64,000 nucleotides of DNA, from NCBI GenBank assembly GCA_036924285.1, contig JAYKYS010000002.1:4154001-4218000 (forward strand). The letters run 5' to 3'. Under the pieces are notes generated by a model. It did not search any database and was not told where the DNA came from. It saw only the letters and a list, made by a program, of their open reading frames with translations. A program made the position numbers and the translations under genes. The stretch is from Asterella californica (lineage: Eukaryota; Streptophyta; Marchantiopsida; Marchantiales; Aytoniaceae). This document shows positions 4,863-57,527 of this stretch, piece after piece. Each line of letters opens with the position of its first letter. The first letter of the stretch is position 1.

Positions 4863-7374
4863 CTAACGCAACAGATCAACAGGACCAGAGTTCGTCCACG
4901 TAGCTTGCTGTCTAGTAGAATTCAAAGCATGAATGCAATCGTTCACTCGCCGTGAAAAATATTTCATGCACTTCTGGAACCGCGCTAGGAACATAGCATT
5001 GTCTGATTCTCGACGGAGGACTACTTCGATGTTCATCATGATAGTTCTGAGCTCCTCTATGATAACCTGGACGGACGAATTATCTAGCTCATGGTCAGAA
5101 TCTTCTGCTAGATTTCCTTCTTCAGTACCAAAGTGGACTGGTTCTTCGAACCATGGAACTGAATGTGCAGCTATCGTCTCTCGGTCAAAAAGTGACCCAA
5201 CAGCTCCAAAATGTAGTAAAGGATACTCGTGTCTACGATAAGTGGAAGAGAATACCAGAAACCCAGGACTTGTCAATGAATGCGCTAGTACAAGATGTTT
5301 GCATAAAAGATACGGACTATTCAGATAGCTTGGACAACTACATACCCATTTCGAGGTGCTTACCTCATGCCGCTGGTCTGCATCAGAACTCACCTTCGCC
5401 TGTAAACACCTCTTCCAGCTGAGACCAAAGTCTCGCCACCACGAAGGGAAGAACCGTCTATTCTTCATTTGCTGCAGCTGAATCTGCAAGTCTTGCACTA
5501 ACGTACGTGCTAGTATTTTGCACAATCTATTGAGCCTAGGTCTATTACACGAGTATTTATGATCATACTTCAACTTCCTCCAATGCGACTCGATGATATT
5601 TGTTGTTCGAGATAAGCAAAGATGAGGTTTAGAAGACCTGGCAAAAAATACCCACCTATCGGGACGATACCACTCATTCCAGAGATAACTCCAGAAGTGT
5701 ACCAGCTTCCGAGAGTAACACCAACCATAAGCCTCACATACAGACTCCCTGTAGTACTCTTCAGCCGTGAAGAACACTCCACAAGCAACAGGAATCAGAG
5801 GATGTCTATTAAAATGCTTAGTGAACCAAGTGTTAATATCCCGTCTCGTGTCTAATGGAGCAATATGTCTAGGAACCTCTAAGGTCGAATGTGTCCATCC
5901 TCTGTCAACAAACTCGAACAACGAACTCGCTGCGTCAGCATCATATGCATGTACATTACGCTTTACGCTGTCGACAGCTGCTTGTGCATGACGCAAACAT
6001 AATTGCACATAACTTCTATAAAAGATAGATTGCAAACCTCGTATCTGTCCTAGATCCTTATCTGTTAGGAAGAAAGTCGGTTTCAACCCACGCTCCAGAA
6101 CAGCCTAAAACCATCGGATTAACACTGATATGCGAATGCGTTCGCCTTCTCCTTGAGAGCCTCCGGTCTTACCTTTCTCATTATATTTTCTGCTGTAAAA
6201 CATGTATGCTAAAGACAGTCCAAAACCTCCGATATTCGCATTCAACGCAAAAAGGTCGAACATAACAGCATTAGTCTTAAACGTGCTATCTATTATGACC
6301 TCTGTTACCTTAGTAGCATTTGCAAAAAATGGAGTAATGAAAGCAAAGACATTGTAAATCTCGTCATTCTCAAAAACTATTGGAGAGAACCCGATGCTAC
6401 TGTATTTCTCTCTCGCTCCTTATCAACTCCTGGGCTGATGCCAACTGGTCTGAGACGTTTCGGATATAAGTGCTTGCTAAAATCTTTGCAACATGATAGT
6501 TTACCTGACTACGAGTTACAAAAACCGGATCTATAAGCTTCTCCATACACAATGCTCTATACAACTCAGTCTTTCTATATGAAGAATTCACAGCTTCATT
6601 CAAATATTGAATGGCTGCAGCAGATATAACACAATCGCGAAAAGAAGAGCGGTCGTGTTGACATAGATGCTGATAGACAATCACGCATGTCTTGTGCACG
6701 AGATCTATGTCAACCTTCACACTACCTTTACATGGAAAACATTCGATAGCTTTTCGTTTACCTGGCTGTCTCGAACTGGAGCTATCACCATCGATTGGTC
6801 TTCTCGAACCCAATCGATCATCTCGCGAAGAACACCAAAGCGAGACTGAACACTGTTCATCCGATGTTGAACCTCTGACATACTGCACTCCCCAGTAATA
6901 ACCAAACCCGCATTCGAGGTCGGGTTTCAAGTGATCTTTCACAAAGAGATCACATTTCTCTTGGATCCTATCCTTCTCGCTCATCACGACATTAACATTT
7001 CCTTGTGGAAAGACTCCATCATCAAGCTGGACTTGAATCCGAGTGCGGACGATACCGACATCGTCATCTTCATCATCAAACACCTCAGACAACACATCCA
7101 ACAAATTCTCTAAAGAACAATCAACACTCTCCATTATCTCGTCTATGCCTTCTATCTCGTCGTTATTTACCTTCAACGCGTCCTTACCATCACATCGGTT
7201 GCAACGCTTGAACTGACGAATCCCAATGAGATTCTCCACATTCCGTTCACGCATGAATTGATGTACTGATAAGGTTCTGTTACACCTCGAACATGTTCTC
7301 AGTCTGATATTCTGCTCCGTCATGCTCTCAACCCTAAACAGCACTGATGCACCTTCAACAAATAACTCGATCAC
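4863..7374 (-). pseudogene. MULE-type (FAR1-like) transposase, broken
   Basis: Two long minus-strand reading frames and the bridge between them form one Mutator-like transposase. The N-terminal frame (7374-6397) has a Cys4 pattern (RTCSRC ... FKRCNRC) and an acidic linker. The bridge encodes IIDSTFKTN, with the likely first catalytic Asp at 6290-6288. The C-terminal frame (6086-4863) has FLTDKD (second Asp, residue 9), CLRHA (C30, H33), TTNIIESHW (catalytic Glu, E166) and a SWIM zinc finger CxCx10CxH (C249, C251, C262, H264). Breaks: the N-terminal frame stops at TAG near 6397 and the sequence continues in another frame; an in-frame TAG lies near 6105, just before LERGLKPTFF. A spliced gene could explain one break but not both easily, so I call it a pseudogene. 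The family moves DNA by cut-and-paste and also gave rise to FAR1/FHY3 regulators. Confidence 0.75.
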
Positions 7375-9844: not shown

Positions 9845-11034
9845 TCAGTTTCGGACTGCTTCGGATTTGGAACTGAATAGACTCCCCAATAGCTCTGAAT
9901 GAGAGGAGTCGTCCGCTTTTGATATTTCCAAACCATAGTTCCAAGAAGCATCGTTCGTTTGCTCGTAGTCGTATCCCATAGCTCGATGGTCTAGAACGTC
10001 CCTTACCTTCACTCTTACCAGGTCCGCATTTCCGTCGTAAAACTGAAACTCTGCATCCAAAAAGTCCGGGTCCACGGGTTCCGTTCTTCCAGGGCCTAAT
10101 CGAGTCCACACCTACCATAATCTCTCCACGTTCCCATGGTGTGCGAAGAAAAGAGGATCCGTCGCAGCTATCGGGCCCTCAGCCATGTCTCCGCCGATCC
10201 AACTGTGTACTGCAGCGTAAGGACCGATTTCCAGTGAACCGGCTGCACCGAATGGATTTTGCTAGAACTCCTATCCAGCCCTGTACGGCACTCCGAAGAA
10301 AATTCGAGCGTTTACAGAATCGATCACCATAACATCGTGCAAAATTTGCGGATTCCTAGACACAACGACATTATCGGGCAACTGGACTCCTGCTATCAAA
10401 GCAAATCCTAGGTCAACGGGAACGGATGCTGGTGAGGGTCTCCAGATGCGGTTCAGGTGGAACAGAGGCGAACCCGGCTCGGTATACATGGCAGGAATTT
10501 TGTTCCCAGCCTTCAAGCAGCCACTTTTACCATTTCCTGGACCTGGAGCCCCGTCATTATCCCAGTTCCAGAAATGGAGCGTGAAGGTAGGATCTCCGAG
10601 CAGAACTTGCATAATGTGCTCGAGAAAATACAAGTACAAACGATGGAACGGGTGGAAGAGCCAGCTGGCGTGAATATCTGTGCCAAAGCCTGAGTTGTCG
10701 AGGCACCCAGTACTGTAAGTACAGTGGACCATATGTTGGTTTTGGAGAGAGCGAGGATCTTCAGCTGGGAGTGCGCGCATTAACTCATAAGCTCTTATCA
10801 GTCTCTCCTTGTAAACGTCAAGCTCCTCCTGATTCGGAGAGGTCTGGAAGAGTTTTGCACGAGTTTGAAATCCACGATTGGCCGTTGAGACTTTGGTGGA
10901 CAACAAAACATTTGGCTACGATGGAGAACAGGAGGTCAGCAGTTATCAAAAGATAACTTGATCGGAGCCGACCGGATCACGTGCAAACATGAGAAAAAAA
11001 TAACAGAATGCAGGAGCTTGAAACACTGCGCCAT
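9845..11034 (-). pseudogene. PPO: Polyphenol oxidase (tyrosinase) pseudogene
   Basis: This is a paralogue of the intact PPO at 56316-57527, with the same start (MAQCFKLL, ATG at 11034-11032) and the same end (SEAVRN). The CuA region is preserved (HCTYSTG, IDIH-like TDIH, FHPFHRLYLYF). It is broken by several stops relative to the intact copy: TGA at about codon 33, TAG replacing Gln262, a second TAG shortly after it, and TAG replacing Tyr315. The first CuB histidine is also changed: the intact GPHAAIH reads GPYAAVH here. The upstream deletion removes the TATA element. Together these show a dead gene, not just sequencing noise. Its longest surviving frame (10906-10271) still spells the CuA half. 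Confidence 0.9.
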
Positions 11035-15500: not shown

Positions 15501-15640
15501 CTTTCCTATCTTCTTCTACGCGATTAGGGAATGGGTTCGATTACACTAGATCTATCTATTATCATGGTGACTACACGATAGGTATACCTACCCCTTATCT
15601 AGTCGGTGCGTGAGTGATACCTCCCACGGTTGCAATCATT
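12555..15640 (-). mobile_element. GAAGAC-rich LTR-family element, copy A (minus strand)
   Basis: This is one of at least three copies of a repeated family (A here; B at 17.79-20.0 kb; C at 46.4-51.4 kb). On the minus strand it holds a remnant ORF (13881-13660) reading AELVEVKSYIEELGLDFF and a long coiled-coil-like piece near 12.55-12.81 kb. Both are also present in copy C at 47.7-49.4 kb. The DNA is saturated with GAAGAC/GTCTTC and GAAGC/GCTTC words. Frames are short and interrupted, so the copy is dead. Its outer half (14.2-15.64 kb) is an inverted copy of 17.79-18.75 kb. No pol domain is seen inside, so the family may be non-autonomous. Confidence 0.65.
13183..13910 (-). pseudogene. Remnant of the family's conserved ORF (copy A)
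   Basis: In minus-strand frames, LGLDFFTWDWNLADEGILEE and EEVWAALPPRN (13881-13660) and VQKVRYLGDQDVEFLEAIWE and VYLGTPAGGHLTPFFCYLYV (13470-13183) match copy B at 19059-19843 almost word for word. The function is unknown to me; I see no enzyme motif. It is probably a gag-like or structural protein of this LTR family, broken here into several frames. Confidence 0.5.
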
Positions 15641-17530
15641 CTCTTCCTGGAAGACGTCCGAGCATTATGGTCTTCTGAGCAACAAGAAGCCTTCGAGGAG
15701 ATGAAGAAGCTTCTCTCAGAACTCCATGTCTTGAGATCACCTGCTTGGGAAAAGGTCTTCCACATTTATGTGGATGTCTCTGCTTTTGCCATAGGGGTGG
15801 TACTGAGTCAGAAAGACGAGAAGAAGAAAGATTATCTCATTTATTACGCTGGAAGACAACTCAATGATGTCGAGAAGAAGTACTCGACAACTAAAAGGGA
15901 GTGCCTTGGCATGATTTATTCTTGTAGGAAGTTTAGGCACTATTTTCTGGCTAACCCATTTGTCTTCTATGTGGATCATTTTTATTTGAAGCATTTAGTG
16001 AAGAAAGCAGATTTGTCAGGTAGGATTGCTAGGTGGGTTCTTCTACTTCAAGAATTCACTTACACTGTTGAGTACAAGCCTGGAAGACAACACGTCAATG
16101 CTGACTACCTATCCAGATTGAAAAAAAAACTCGAGAAGACGAGGTGGAAGACGAGTTCCCTGACGAGAGCTGTTCCAAGTTTTTGCAGAGAAGTCGCAGT
16201 CTGAGAGAGAGCGCACCGCCCACTCTCTTGAACCCGAGGCAAGGTCTTCTGACCTTGTTTATGCGACTTCTACAGAGGAATCTATCTTCACGGATCTGAG
16301 GAAGTTCTCGGAAGATCAACAGTACCCAGAAGGATTGGATGCCGAGCAAAAGGCCATCTTCTTACATAAGAGCAAAGCTTAAAGCCATCTTCCAAGGTAT
16401 TCTGTTTAGGAAGGGCCATGACGAGAAGTTGAGGAGATGCCTCGAACCCTAAGAGATTAAGGCAGTGATCACGGATCTTACGAAAATGTTGGAGCTCACT
16501 ATGGAGTGAAGACGACGGTGAAGAGGATGTTAGACGTTGGCTACTGATGGCCAACCATGTACAAAGACACTTTTCAGGAAATCAGAAGATGTGATGCATG
16601 CTAGAGGATGGGAAGACCTACCGTCACTACTCGATAATCTCTTATTCCCATTTTGCTTCTAGCATCTTTTAAAAAGTGAGGAATCGACTTCGTTGGACCA
16701 ATCGCTCCTGCAGCTAGAAGAATCCGAGCACGTTACATACTGATCGCTACAGACTATGCCACGAATATGATAGAGGACGAAGCCACAAGGAAGAACGATG
16801 CTGCAATGGTTACCAAATTTCTTTGAGACAACATCATCATTTGTTACGGATGTCCGCTGGAACTGATGTCAAACAAAAGAATTCATTTTCTGAATGAGAC
16901 CATTACTCTCTTGATTCAGTATTTCAGGATCAAGCTTCGGAAGATGACACCGTACAACTCGAAGGCTAATGGATTGATAGAGAAGTCGAATGATCTTCTC
17001 TACAACTATTTTGAATAAAGTAACTGTAAACCCCGCTTATGATTGAGACACGAAGCTTCCATCTGTGTTGTGGACTTTTAGGATCTCACCTGAAGTCACC
17101 ACTCAGAAGACATCTTTCTACCTAACTTATGAGATGACATCGTTGTCTCCATCAAGTTGGAGGTCCCTATCTATAGGTTGGCTGTTATTGAACGCATGGA
17201 AGAAGAGGAAAGCCAAGAGCAGTGTCTTCTGAACTTTGTGGAGTTCGAGGGAGACAGGAATGCAGTTCTCGAGAAGACTTACGAAGTGCAGGCACAACGA
17301 AAGGTTAACTATGACGGCAAGCTGAAGAAGGTGACTGTCAAGGATGGAGACCTGGTTCTCCTATAAGACAACAGACATCCAAAATTCTCTGGGAAGCTTC
17401 ATCTTCGCTGGATGGGTCCTTACAGAGTCCTAGAAGTCTTCGACAATGGTTCCTTACAACTGGAAGAGCTAGATGGTATCTTGATGACCACGCGTGTTAA
17501 CGAGTGACGTGTCAAGAAGTACTGGGCTTA
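15614..17530 (+). pseudogene. Ty3/gypsy pol fragment: RNase H and integrase, decayed
   Basis: The open frame 15614-16204 is a Ty3-type RNase H: SSEQQEAFEEMKKLLSE connector, VDVSAFAIGVVLSQ (Asp), STTKRECLGM (Glu), FYVDHFYLKHL (Asp), HVNADYLSRL (Asp). Integrase follows in broken frames: GAHYGVKTTVKRM with CDAC near 16490-16600 (zinc region, two in-frame stops), FVGPI and ATDYAT (first Asp) near 16700, LMSNKRIHFLNETI near 16870 where the usual Asp is Asn, and YNSKANGLIEKSN (Glu) near 16960. The C-terminal part (VKDGDLVLL, then HLRWMGPYRVLEVFDNGSLQ) ends near 17530. Gag, protease and polymerase are absent. Stops plus the Asp-to-Asn change make it inactive. Confidence 0.85.
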
Positions 17531-31229: not shown

Positions 31230-31480
31230 GCATTACCGGTTTATAAGTTAGAAGCATTACCTGTTTACAAGGCAGAGAAACTGATAAACAAAGTGCGTTA
31301 GATTCTTAGAAGTATAAGAAGCCGGAGAGTACGAATGAACAATCCATTTGCATTTTGATTTGGCTTTTCCCAAACCTTTCCAGTTTGCAAGGGAGAGAAT
31401 TCGTAAATAAAGTACGTTGATTGTTACGTCGTGAAGTAAATGAATGAAGCCCGAGAGTACCAATTAACAATCCGGATTCA
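31230..31480. repeat. Direct repeat of about 85-90 bp, spacing about 120 bp
   Basis: TTTACAAGGCAGAGAA ... GAGAGTACGAATGAACAATC (31264-31344) is repeated, diverged, as TTTGCAAGGGAGAGAA ... GAGAGTACCAATTAACAATC (31384-31473). It lies between the PsbP-like gene and the HUH gene and could be the edge of the mobile element carrying the latter. Confidence 0.6.
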
Positions 31481-31900
31481 GACATCGTTGCATTATAGTC
31501 AGTCTCAGAGTTCGCTGCCTGGATTTGGGCCCCGTAATTATTTTTCGCGCTGTATTTCCTGAAGAAGCTAGGGTAGCCGCGGTTTTTCTTCCCATCTTTC
31601 AGAATTTCGGCTGGTGGGGGGGTGTTTACTGCAGGTATTACGACGGACGTTCTCGTCTTTTTTCTCAAGAAGAAGGGGAACGTTTGCCCCGGAAACTTTA
31701 TTTATTTAAAACCTTGTACATATAGTTTCGAAAACCGTTTCAAAACCGCAGAGAGAGCTGTCGCTTCCGTTTGTTTGCTGCTGTGCAGACTGGACTGCAC
31801 TACAGTAAGAACGAATAACTGTAAAGGTACTATGTGCCTAAAACACTACACTGCCTATGTACATAAAACACTGCACTGCCTATGTAGATAAAAGATGTCA

Positions 31901-33474
31901 CTAGACTGGTAAGCCCCTTTCATGCCCAGTGCCGCGGAGCATGGCCTCAACCAACGGAATGTAGTCGGAGAAGGTGTCCGCCTCTGTGAAAACGGTACTC
32001 TTTCTCTGCAGTCGGCTATCGAGGTCTGTCTTGTCCATCTGCCGCTCTTCTTCTGCGAGTGGCTGCTCGTCCGGCTGCCGTTCTTTTGCTGTGACTGGCA
32101 GCACTCCATCGCCTGCTGGACGATCACTGTAATACCTGCGCAAGCAATGCGCACAACGAGCAGTATCCTTATAGAAAAATATTCGGTCGATGTCCTCTGC
32201 GCTTACCTCATGAGGCCTGATGTACGAGTTCCAGAGCGAATCGGAGCGACACTTCTGTATTCCTGCTTGTGTAAGCCACCGGGGTGATGCGCTATACTTC
32301 CCAGATGCCAGCATACCCTTCAAACACCGAGCAAAAGTGGTCGACAAGGGAGTAGGGGACTTGTATCTATTATACTGCAGAGCGCGAGGAAGGATATTCA
32401 AGTATGTCAACTCCACGCGGTTTTTGGTGTCAGCTGCCCCCATAAGCATAAACAACTCCTTACCATCCTCAATCATCGTCTCGGAGATGTTCTTCATTGT
32501 AGCATAGTGATGTTGAAGGTTCTGATCCTTCAGACAGTATCCTACCATCCCAACGAAGGTATGAATACCTTTGTTAGATAAGCGCTTCACGCAAATCTCT
32601 GCTCCTACGGGCTTATCTCTGTCCCAGCCCAAAGCTTGACTGATACGCTTCTTCACCTGCAGGCAGGACTTCCCGTATATGCAAATGACACCCTGAAAGT
32701 GGAGATGGAGAAGTGACCCACCTCTCTCAACTGAAAAAATACCAGAAACGCATTGCTGCTTCAGAAAGTTCGAGATAAGAGGGAAGTAAGTAGTATCGAG
32801 GTCGGCTCCAGTAGTGCAGATGGTTACCGACACCTCTAGGCTGGGACGCCTAGCTCTGGCTTCGCGCCGGAGAGACATTCCCTCACTCAAGAGAAGTGAC
32901 GGCAAAGCACTAAGCTGTTCTCAAGGTCAACTTGAGTACAAATGCAAGGATGAGCACAAAAACGATACACTGCGTGCACAGTGGACCTCAACGAACCGTC
33001 AGCGCGGGTGAAATAAGCGGGGTACGAAAACATTCGATATCGCCTGTCCTGCAAGTAGAGATAGAAATTATCCACCGAGTACGAGAAAAAACGGAACGGA
33101 CCAGCCAGCCATCGCAAGGGAAAGGGGTGCAACTCACAGGGATGGCAGGTTTTACCTATCTTCACATAATCGAATTTAATTAAAAACTCAGGTGGATGCT
33201 CTGAGAACCCTAGCTGCAAGTAAATGTAACTGCGGTACCGTTGTAGCTGTCGATCGTCAAATGATATCATAGGCGGACTGAGGTACAGAGGCAAGAAACG
33301 GGGGATATCACCAGTAACGTCCAAGAACTCGAAGTCAGAACCAGTTTCCGCTGTCGACACCACAGCAGTAAGATCTTCTACGTCACTGCCCACGGGCTCA
33401 ACTTCCACCGCAATGTCACTCTGCGTCTCCTCGACCTCGAGGCTATCGTTACAGGCCCCGCTCAAGTCTGACAT
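31901..33474 (-). pseudogene. HUH endonuclease (Rep-like), replitron candidate, one frameshift
   Basis: A predicted single-strand DNA nicking-joining enzyme. Frame one (ATG at 33474-33472, to 32887) has an acidic N-terminus then a Cys/His-rich region (TCHPCELHPFPLRW ... YRFCAHPCICTQ), perhaps zinc-binding. Frame two (32905-31901) holds the nuclease: SLEVSVTICTTG (Rep motif I-like), LLHLHFQGVI (HUH metal motif, H67 and H69 of this frame) and MVGYCLKDQ (YxxK motif III, Tyr123 and Lys126), with a CAHC pair near the C-terminus. The frames overlap by 19 nt; reading suggests one ancestral protein of about 525 residues with a 1-nt shift. There is no superfamily 3 or Helitron helicase and only one catalytic-type Tyr. 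That differs from geminivirus Rep and Helitron and fits replitrons. Neighbours are repeats, not genes. Confidence 0.65.
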
Positions 33475-34200
33475 TGCACATTGCAAAACATCCACATTGC
33501 CCTCAAAGGCACACGAGCAGAAAGACACAAATGAAAAGAGAAATCGCAGCTCTTACGCTGCTCACAGAGCACCTCATCGCCGACACCTACACGTCCACCG
33601 TCCTGCACATGCAACACCTAAGCCAACAGCCTCGTCCAACAGCCTCGCCCACGCTGCACACCTACACAAAAGGATAAACTTCGGGCGGACGACCAACCGG
33701 CTTCCAGAACAAGAACTTACCACCCTGCGACCGGAGCATGTTTGCCAACAACAAAACGAAAAAGCAAAGCCTCGGAAATCAAACGAAATGAAGCTAAGCA
33801 AACTCGAGCATAGGCCGCGCCCCTACAAGCCACCGACGAAGAAACCACGAGCAAAGCAGACAAACGACAGACCGAGGTGACAACACCCCCGCATAGGCCA
33901 CACCCCTACAACCGAGCGACGAAAAGACCACGAGCGAAGCGAAGAAACTAAGTGAAATGAAAGACGCGGCCACCACGACGAGCCCGCACAACGCCGCTGC
34001 ACCAAGCTGACCCCGCCTAATGCCGCTCCGGCTAAACAACCTGCAGCCAAAAGATTAAACCCCGAGCCGCCCAAAACTGAAAACTCGACCTAACGCCCAC
34101 ACAGCCGCCCCGCACGCCAATAGCGAAAATCCACGCCACCGCCGCTTGTCGTTTTCCACCTCCCGCACAAAACCTCGGTTTCGACGCTTATTCATTTTAC
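33475..34200. other. GC-rich upstream region of the HUH gene, with a direct repeat
   Basis: GCATAGGCCGCGCCCCTACA ... ACCACGAGCAAAGC (33810-33865) is repeated as GCATAGGCCACACCCCTACA ... ACCACGAGCGAAGC (33892-33943), 82 bp apart. Open frames on both strands (33413-33880 plus; 33574-34074 minus) reflect base composition. Clearly richer in GC than the flanks, so it may belong with the HUH gene to one mobile unit. Confidence 0.5.
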
Positions 34201-43651: not shown

Positions 43652-44221
43652 TCAAGTGGATGAGAAGATGATGATATCGTCTAAGTACACGATAACACTC
43701 TCATCCAAGAGATCCCTGAAGATCTCGTTCATCATCTTGCAAAAAGTACCAGGTGTATTGGACAATCCAAACTGCAACACTGTATACTCAAACAAGCCAT
43801 ACCTCGTCCTTACATCTGTCTTCTCTTCATCTCCTTCTCTGATCCGGATTTGGTAATATCCAGAACGAAGATCCAACTTGGTGAAGTACCTTCCTGTGAC
43901 CAACCGATCGGTGGTTTCATCCATGAGAGGAAGAGGGTACTTGTTCTTGACAATAACTTTATTAAGTGCACGGTAGTCTACACACATACGTATACCACCA
44001 TCTTTCTTGACCACGAACAACACCGGGGCAACATAAGGTGATATACTGAGCCGTAAGATACCCTGAGCTACCAACTCTTTCAATTGAGTCTTCAGCTCTG
44101 TCAGCTCATCAAACGACATGCGTCTGGATGGCACTGCAATAGACGTAGTCCCAGGAACCAGATCAATAGCATGATCCAAGGTTCTTCTCGGAGGAAGTCC
44201 TGTTGGTAACTGATTCGACAT
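43652..44221 (-). pseudogene. Ty3-type reverse transcriptase domain
   Basis: Open frame of 189 codons with PSRRMSFDELTELKTQL, SPYVAPVLFVVKKDGGIRMC, VDYRALNKVIVKNKYPLPLM, FTKLDLRSGYYQIRI, FEYTVLQFGLSNTPGTF and the catalytic VIVYLDDIIIFS (YLDD). This is the full finger-palm set of a Ty3 polymerase. The motif LDLRSGYYQI has its catalytic Asp. The downstream thumb continues in another frame at 43624-43433 (HLEEHQLYLKKSKCSFGQES, VMFLGCLIDAQGI), so a frameshift lies near 43640. Confidence 0.9.
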
Positions 44222-46370: not shown

Positions 46371-47672
46371 TCTGGATGTCACCTCAGCCGCACCAGAGGT
46401 ATCAGCAGGGCTTCCCACGATATTAGAAGCTGAATTAGGAGATCAAGTAGGTGAGAATCTAGTGTAGACCACACCTGGCGATCAGAAGTAGGCAGTAGAG
46501 GTAGATAGTCAGTTGACATGGTTAATTTTGATAGGAATTAGAGTCTGCTGATTTAAGAAAGATAACTACCGCTTTATTTTTAGGTGACTGTCTATGTGAT
46601 AGGATAAGCAACGATAGGAGTAGAAAGCAATTTCTAAACTGAGAAAAGAATCGAAGCTTTGGAGGTGGTGGCCTTCTGACAGCGTCCCATCTTTCCCTGG
46701 CTGTGAGTTGTGATAGGAAGAGATCTGCCTCCTACGACTCCAAGGCAATTGTATAAAGTAGATATCTGGATAAGATTTCAGACGCACATTTCTACACACA
46801 GGCGGGCGCACACTCACAGACGGTAGTACGTAGAGTTTTAGAGTAGCTGCACCTCCGCTCCCAGCAAGGGATCGAAAGAATGTAGAACAGGAGTAGACAA
46901 CATAGAACAAGGAATGACATCATCGTGCAGTCCTACTTCTAAGCTGGTGTGTCGAGGGGTAGTAACATGAAGCGGATGGAGTGAGCTTCCAGAAGTCAAT
47001 GTAACTTCTTCTTGAGGATTGGATTTCATATTTGATTGCAGAAGCTTTGTCTGTGTCTTCAGGATAGTGAGTTTCCTCGAATTCATATCCAATTGTGCAT
47101 GAAAAGCCTTCTTCTTGAGTGGCGGTGATTGTTAGAAGCTGTGCATAGTCCAAGCTTGTCTCATCTAGTGGAGTACTTTGGATCCACGTACAGACTGTCA
47201 TATGAGAAATTGATCCTTGAAGTCAGTGTAGTCGGAGCAAAGACAGGAGAAGAAAGAAGCATTCTTTACAGATCAATGATGGGAAGCCTAGCTGCGGGAA
47301 GTCTTTTGAAGACTTCAGTTACTTAGAAGCTGTCTCGGGAGTCTTCTTGGAGACCACTTTCACCACAAAATTCCTCAACCTTCTTCTGATCCATTCGTAG
47401 ACTTCGCTTCTCATGTATCTTCTCATCTTCTGTTAGGAAGTAGGATGAACTACAAGGTGGATTGTCTTCTTAGGAATCCATGCGATGCTTTGCTTAGTTA
47501 AGATTGCTTAGATATAGCTCGGAAGACGTGATGTACTTAGGAAGCACTGTTAGAATTCTGGAAGACAGAATAGCTGTCTTCTGAGAGTGGAAGCTGAATT
47601 GTGAGGACCTGGTAAGAGTTGAGTCTTAGGCTCACAGCAAGTATGTGTGGTATAGTGTAACAGAAGCTCAAA

Positions 47673-56315: not shown

Positions 56316-57527
56316 TCAGTTTCGGACTGCTTCGGATTTGGAACCGAATAGACTCCCCAATAGCTCTGAATGAGAGGAGTCGTCCGCTTTTGATGTTTCC
56401 GAACCATAGTTCCAAGAAGCATCGTTCGTTTGCTCGTAGTCGTATCCCATAGCTCGATGGTCTACAATGTCCCTTACCTTCACTCTTACCAGGTCCGCAT
56501 TTCCGTCGTAAAACTGAAACTCTGCATCCAAAAAGTCCGGGTCCACGGGTTCCGTTCTTCCAGGGCCTAAGCGAGTCCACATATACCATAATCTCTCTAC
56601 GTTCCCATGGTGTGCGAAGAAAAGAGGATCCCTCGCAGCTACCGGGCCCACAGCCATGTCTCCGCCGACCCAACTGTGTATTGCAGCGTGAGGACCGGTT
56701 TCCAGTGAACCGCCTGTACCCAGAGTTTTTGGTAACTCCTGTCCAGCCCTGTACGCCCCTCCGAAGAAAATTTGAGCGTTTACAGAATCCATCACCATAA
56801 CCTCGTGCAAAATTTGCGGATTCCTAGACAACAAGAAATTATCGGGCAACTGGACTGTTTCTCCGAAAGCAAATCCTAGGTCAACGGGAACGGATGCTGG
56901 TGAGGGTCTCCACCTGCGATTCAGGTGGAACAGAGGCGAACCCGGCTCGGTATACATGGCAGGAATTTTGTTCCCAGCCTTCAAGCAGCCATTTTTACCA
57001 TTTCGTGGACCTGGAGCCCCGTCATTATCCCAGTTCCAGAAATGGAGCGTGAAGGTAGGATCTCCGAGCAGAACTTGCATAATGTGCTCGAGAAAATACA
57101 AGTACAAACGATGGAACGGGTGGAAGAGCCAGCCGGCGTGAATATCTATGCCAAAGCCTGAGTTGTCGAGGCCCCCAGCACTGTAAGTACAGTGGACCAC
57201 ATGTTGATTATCGAGAGAGCGAGGATCGTCAGCTGGGAGTGCGCGCATTAACTCATAAGCTCTTATCAGTTTCCCCTTGTAAACATCAAGCTCCTCCTGA
57301 TCGAGACATTGCAGTGCCCTCCTGATCCGGAGAGGTCTGGAAGAGTTTTGCACGAGTTTGAAATCCACGATTGGCCGTTGAGACTTTGGTGGACAACAAG
57401 ACCCTTGGGAATGATGGACAACAGAAGGTCCGCAGTTATCTAACGATATCTTGATCGGAGCCGACCGGATCACGTGCAAACATGAGAAAAAAATAACAGA
57501 ATACAGGAGCTTGAAACATTGCGCCAT
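56316..57527 (-). CDS. PPO: Secreted polyphenol oxidase (tyrosinase), short form
   Basis: Oxidises phenols to quinones with a type-3 copper pair. One exon, 403 residues. Residues 1-22 (MAQCFKLLYSVIFFSCLHVI then RS) form a signal peptide, so it enters the secretory pathway rather than the plastid. CuA ligands: H112 (VVHCTYS), H130 (GIDIHAG), H139 (FHPFHR). CuB ligands: H280 and H284 (GPHAAIH), H306/H307 (FFAHHGN). Landmarks LHFWNWDNDG (161-170) and DPLFFAHHGNVERLW are typical of plant PPO. Oddities: the Cys that forms the Cys-His thioether four residues after H112 in plant PPO is Ser116; the C-terminal KFDV-type shielding domain is missing, as the protein ends at SEAVRN near residue 403 against about 500-600 usual. 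A dead paralogue sits at 9845-11034. Start chosen by signal peptide and upstream TATA. Confidence 0.92.
   Translation of the reverse strand: MAQCFKLLYSVIFFSCLHVIRSAPIKISLDNCGPSVVHHSQGSCCPPKSQRPIVDFKLVQNSSRPLRIRRALQCLDQEELDVYKGKLIRAYELMRALPADDPRSLDNQHVVHCTYSAGGLDNSGFGIDIHAGWLFHPFHRLYLYFLEHIMQVLLGDPTFTLHFWNWDNDGAPGPRNGKNGCLKAGNKIPAMYTEPGSPLFHLNRRWRPSPASVPVDLGFAFGETVQLPDNFLLSRNPQILHEVMVMDSVNAQIFFGGAYRAGQELPKTLGTGGSLETGPHAAIHSWVGGDMAVGPVAARDPLFFAHHGNVERLWYMWTRLGPGRTEPVDPDFLDAEFQFYDGNADLVRVKVRDIVDHRAMGYDYEQTNDASWNYGSETSKADDSSHSELLGSLFGSKSEAVRN

Follow-up and report, generated by a model that had tools for sequence, protein, structure and literature searches.

In a 64,000-nucleotide stretch of the liverwort Asterella californica (NCBI GenBank assembly GCA_036924285.1, contig JAYKYS010000002.1, positions 4,154,001 to 4,218,000; hereafter the window), a reverse-strand open reading frame (ORF) encoding an HUH endonuclease was assigned to the Replitron transposase family. 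The encoded protein is likely a single-tyrosine, copy-and-paste nuclease, and a Cys/His-rich ORF upstream of it probably belongs to this element as a further component. We put the probability of this reading at roughly 90%. Replitrons are already known in such plants, and the HUH ORF adds one more member. They are listed in liverworts in the consulted passages of a 2023 review (PMC10741241), while the word Replitron is absent from the consulted main text of the Riccia genome paper (PMC11735767).

Replitron-type nuclease domain

The HUH ORF occupies 31901-32905 (-) and encodes 334 amino acids from a TTG, or 325 from the ATG at 32878. It was assigned by its match to a Pfam profile and by identities of 37-53% to nine proteins of Riccia sorocarpa. 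With hmmscan, residues 34-149 matched PF21859 (Replitron_HUH) at an E-value of 5.5e-17 and 62.7 bits, compared to a curated cut-off of 28.5, and the HLH and YCLK residues both fall within the matched stretch. In the translation, the HUH motif HLHFQG was found at residues 67-72 (32690-32707, -) and the single-tyrosine motif GYCLKD, with the predicted nicking Tyr123, at residues 122-127 (32525-32542, -), beginning 55 residues past the start of HLHFQG. The motif I-like VTICTTG (residues 26-32) precedes the profile-matched stretch, yet aligns with the relatives. All three motifs, as well as Cys/His clusters on both sides (TCHPCELH and CAHPCIC in the upstream ORF, CAHC towards the C-terminus of the HUH frame), lie where the original prediction had placed them. 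Where Replitrons have their C-terminal domain (residues 195-244; 32174-32323, -), PF21860 (Replitron_C) matched at an E-value of 0.16 and 12.8 bits, which is below the cut-off of 27. The same profile stayed below cut-off in 10 of the 12 relatives described below, with a best match of 23.6 bits (E 6.9e-5), and none was listed for P0007 and P0012.

The longest open stretch in the six frames of 31901-33528 comprised 339 codons. Mononucleotide shuffling of these 1628 bases, repeated 1000 times, gave 113.7 codons on average and 235 at most. A stop-free stretch of this length is not expected by chance.

Replitrons are defined by a YxxK motif with one catalytic tyrosine and by the lack of a fused helicase. 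Helitrons carry a two-tyrosine replication-associated protein (Rep) domain fused to a helicase, and the Reps of circular Rep-encoding single-stranded (CRESS) DNA viruses carry a superfamily 3 helicase after the nuclease. The HUH ORF combines the Replitron-type domain with a single-tyrosine YxxK motif, and neither ORF showed a helicase family in Pfam or a Walker A pattern. In six frames of the window, which was not run as a whole against helicase profiles, the sole Walker A pattern (G-x4-GK-S/T) occurred at 47281 (+) in an open stretch of 59 amino acids, about 14 kb away. No helicase is visible, in agreement with the original prediction. The one tyrosine in the motif and the missing helicase family and Walker A pattern in the ORFs speak against a Helitron.

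Liverwort relatives and the variable first histidine

A protein search among 1006 candidates yielded nine relatives at E <= 0.01, all of them from Riccia sorocarpa. Twelve were found at E <= 0.001 in an alignment search of 7144 candidates, namely eleven Riccia sorocarpa proteins (P0001-P0011) and P0012, a JGI protein of 237 amino acids. The PF21859 cut-off was passed by eleven of them, with P0011 below it at 19.4 bits, and most of the Riccia relatives are already named Replitron HUH proteins in UniRef. Their alignment to the window protein spans motif I to about residue 245, covering the HUH domain and the following region, while the tails past this point are dissimilar and the models P0007-P0009 and P0011 lack parts of the aligned region. 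Several Riccia relatives carry KRRPGRPPG-like repeats before the HUH domain, which we take to be AT-hook-like; the window frames showed none.

The first HUH residue, a histidine in the window, is covered by nine of the twelve relatives (P0001-P0006 and P0010-P0012; the other three are gapped there) and is a histidine in none of them. Seven have Asn and one Lys, which together make up the eight Riccia proteins covering the site, and P0012 has Arg. The second histidine is kept in eight of the nine, with Asp in P0011, and the motif tyrosine in 11 of all 12. The database copies are either dead for the most part or able to use a different residue in place of the first histidine. Comparing the window Replitron, with its complete HUH pair, to the eight Riccia relatives would help to establish the requirements of a Replitron nuclease.

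Predicted fold

The predicted fold of the HUH nuclease resembles the Rep nuclease domains of circoviruses and nanoviruses at low confidence. Foldseek searches with the model returned no match in PDB at E <= 0.001 and 122 matches at this threshold in BFVD. Among the best 50 of these, four were named, comprising three Rep or replication proteins and one parvovirus nonstructural protein. Two chains retrieved at an E-value of 1.2 in a PDB sequence search were dismissed as irrelevant, and the HUH ORF matched no PHROGs family.

Upstream ORF and the arrangement of the two frames

The Cys/His-rich upstream ORF extends over 32887-33474 (-) and encodes 195 amino acids from the ATG at 33474, or 213 from an upstream GTG, before its stop at 32887. 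A stretch of 54 residues resembled residues 106-159 of P0010, with 22 of 54 identical (41%) and a single-comparison E-value of 2e-7 that has to be weighted by a factor of about 12, the likeness having been picked by eye among 12 proteins before the test. The comparison scored 85, which none of 2000 shuffles reached (mean 32.1, maximum 60). P0010 is a Riccia protein of 632 amino acids whose PF21859 match starts at residue 351, and the similar stretch precedes it. No Pfam or PHROGs family was found for the upstream ORF at E <= 1, and its structure model was of no use (mean predicted local distance difference test score of 35.1).

The HUH frame opens at 32920 and is shifted by one base relative to the upstream ORF, with an open overlap of 34 nt. 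An ATG is present at 32878, directly past the end of the upstream frame. From the conserved stretch to motif I, the only region scanned for introns, three GT-AG candidates (50, 80, and 86 nt) could connect the two frames; all were judged weak. The upstream part would be a protein of its own, or an N-terminal portion that a small intron connects to the nuclease or that a frameshift has split off, and a frameshift mutation accounts for the two-ORF layout equally well.

Element ends and copies

Replitron ends are described in the consulted part of the review (PMC10741241) as direct terminal repeats of 5-11 bp with target site duplications of 2-8 bp. Direct repeats of at least 6 bases with target duplications of at least 3 were sought in 2200 bases upstream and 1700 bases downstream of the ORFs, with 100 shuffles in 50-base blocks as control. 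The 48 candidate pairs compare to a shuffle mean of 32.8, and the best score of 12 to a mean best of 12.2, being reached in 66% of the shuffles. No element end is named, since the best candidate repeats are no better than those in shuffled sequence; the mobile unit of 2.3-3 kb that had been proposed for this locus stays a candidate. The repeat finder detected no long repeat pair bracketing both ORFs, and the only direct pair flanking them on either side was an AT-rich one of 13 nt (92%) at 31693 and 35142. With tblastn, no second copy of the element was found within the window, and other matches at E-values of 0.64-0.83 were taken as chance.

Just past the HUH ORF stop, two tandem 25-nt copies (88%) at 31830-31879 are a candidate part of the element, and a polyadenylation-like AATAAA occurs 3' of the ORF at 31701-31706 (-). 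Further downstream, 31257-31345 and 31377-31473, about 120 nt apart, match each other at 73%. Upstream of the ORFs, a strand-skewed, GC-richer stretch at 33808-33948 holds two 58-nt direct copies (81%) 83 nt apart.

Other features of the window

Two ORFs at 4863-6086 and 6397-7374 (-), together 4863-7374, are possibly a Mutator-like element; the first gave a weak MULE transposase match of 13.7 bits, below the cut-off of 27.6. A polyphenol oxidase gene with Tyrosinase and PPO1_DWL domains (Pfam) was found at 56316-57527 (-); like the liverwort relatives of the HUH protein, it agrees with a plant genome. About 45 kb away, a shorter ORF at 10271-10906 (-), whose protein text reads close to that gene although the two were not aligned, is likely its truncated duplicate. 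Fragments of retrotransposon-type reverse transcriptase and RNase H domains were located at 43652-44221 (-) and 15614-16204 (+).

Discussion

The original prediction of a Replitron is upheld by the curated profile, in which the HLHFQG and YCLK residues sit, and by the homologues, with weak support from the predicted Rep-like fold. From what is generally known of the family, the HUH histidine pair would hold a metal ion, and Tyr123 would attack and nick one strand at the element end, staying covalently joined to it. Host helicase and polymerase would then replicate the element and displace a new strand, which the HUH protein would join to a new site in a copy-and-paste manner. The Cys/His clusters of the upstream ORF may serve in recognizing DNA ends or in binding a partner, although this role is a guess.

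Several observations weigh against this reading, and most concern the upstream ORF. In the structure comparison, unrelated folds tie with the Rep-like fold predicted for the nuclease. The length of the upstream ORF (195-213 amino acids) lies below the shuffle maximum of 235 codons and is by itself weaker evidence. Its match is confined to one of 12 relatives, with the remaining 11 scoring 23-35, and P0010 is a predicted gene model chosen by eye. A direct search of the protein database with the upstream ORF returned none of 83 candidates at E <= 0.1, though P0010, which was found via the HUH alignment search, was probably skipped as a candidate by its length. The upstream ORF could therefore be unrelated to the element and the likeness an effect of the gene model or of chance. 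We consider this unlikely, as no shuffle attained the observed score and the stretch sits upstream of a Replitron HUH domain both in the window and in P0010. The suggested new domain combination with a Cys/His-rich N-terminal part is in part supported by a recurring stretch, seen in a single relative. If confirmed in more copies, the stretch would offer a clue to an accessory component of Replitron transposons. A further proposal, that in one liverwort lineage of Replitrons the HUH nuclease works with another conserved module ahead of it, rich in Cys and His and without a name in Pfam or PHROGs, and can dispense with the first metal-binding histidine, is rather doubtful; its latter half is drawn from the Asn, Lys, or Arg at this site in all nine covering relatives.

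It is a serious possibility, somewhat short of even odds, that the window holds a decayed Replitron copy, in which one former frame was split by an insertion or deletion and which no longer moves. Such decay does not conflict with the family assignment and would fit the one-base offset, the short open overlap, and the union of both parts within one predicted protein in P0010. On the other hand, the openness of the HUH frame and its retained motifs speak against decay, the candidate introns could join the frames even if none is strong, and the ATG just past the upstream stop allows for two separate proteins. A domesticated Replitron protein kept as a host gene would account for a long open frame with undetectable element ends and no other copy in the window. 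However, the existence of 11 dissimilar Riccia proteins suggests a family with multiple copies, and end repeats are hard to recognize from a single copy, which makes domestication quite improbable. An integrated Rep gene of a CRESS-DNA virus or plasmid is the least probable origin by far. While the predicted fold would agree with it, the sequence fits the Replitron profile and no Walker A motif lies downstream of the nuclease. Moreover, when viral contigs were scanned with the alignment of the relatives, 34 pattern matches came up and no relative by tblastn; a further viral scan and a scan of genome contigs gave 6 and 11 pattern matches, respectively, likewise with no relative by tblastn.

Among known systems, the Rep nuclease domains of CRESS-DNA viruses share the motif order with the HUH protein, and their likeness in fold is a low-confidence prediction. 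These Reps carry a helicase part, whereas the ORFs of the window lack a helicase and match Replitrons in sequence. The Replitron class, reportedly described by Craig in PNAS in 2023 (cited in PMC10741241), is said to have a single-tyrosine Rep domain without a helicase and to occur in non-seed plant hosts, as is the case here. The upstream ORF would be an addition to that class, although the class may also include one, and among the Riccia proteins it is P0010 that carries the corresponding stretch ahead of its HUH domain.
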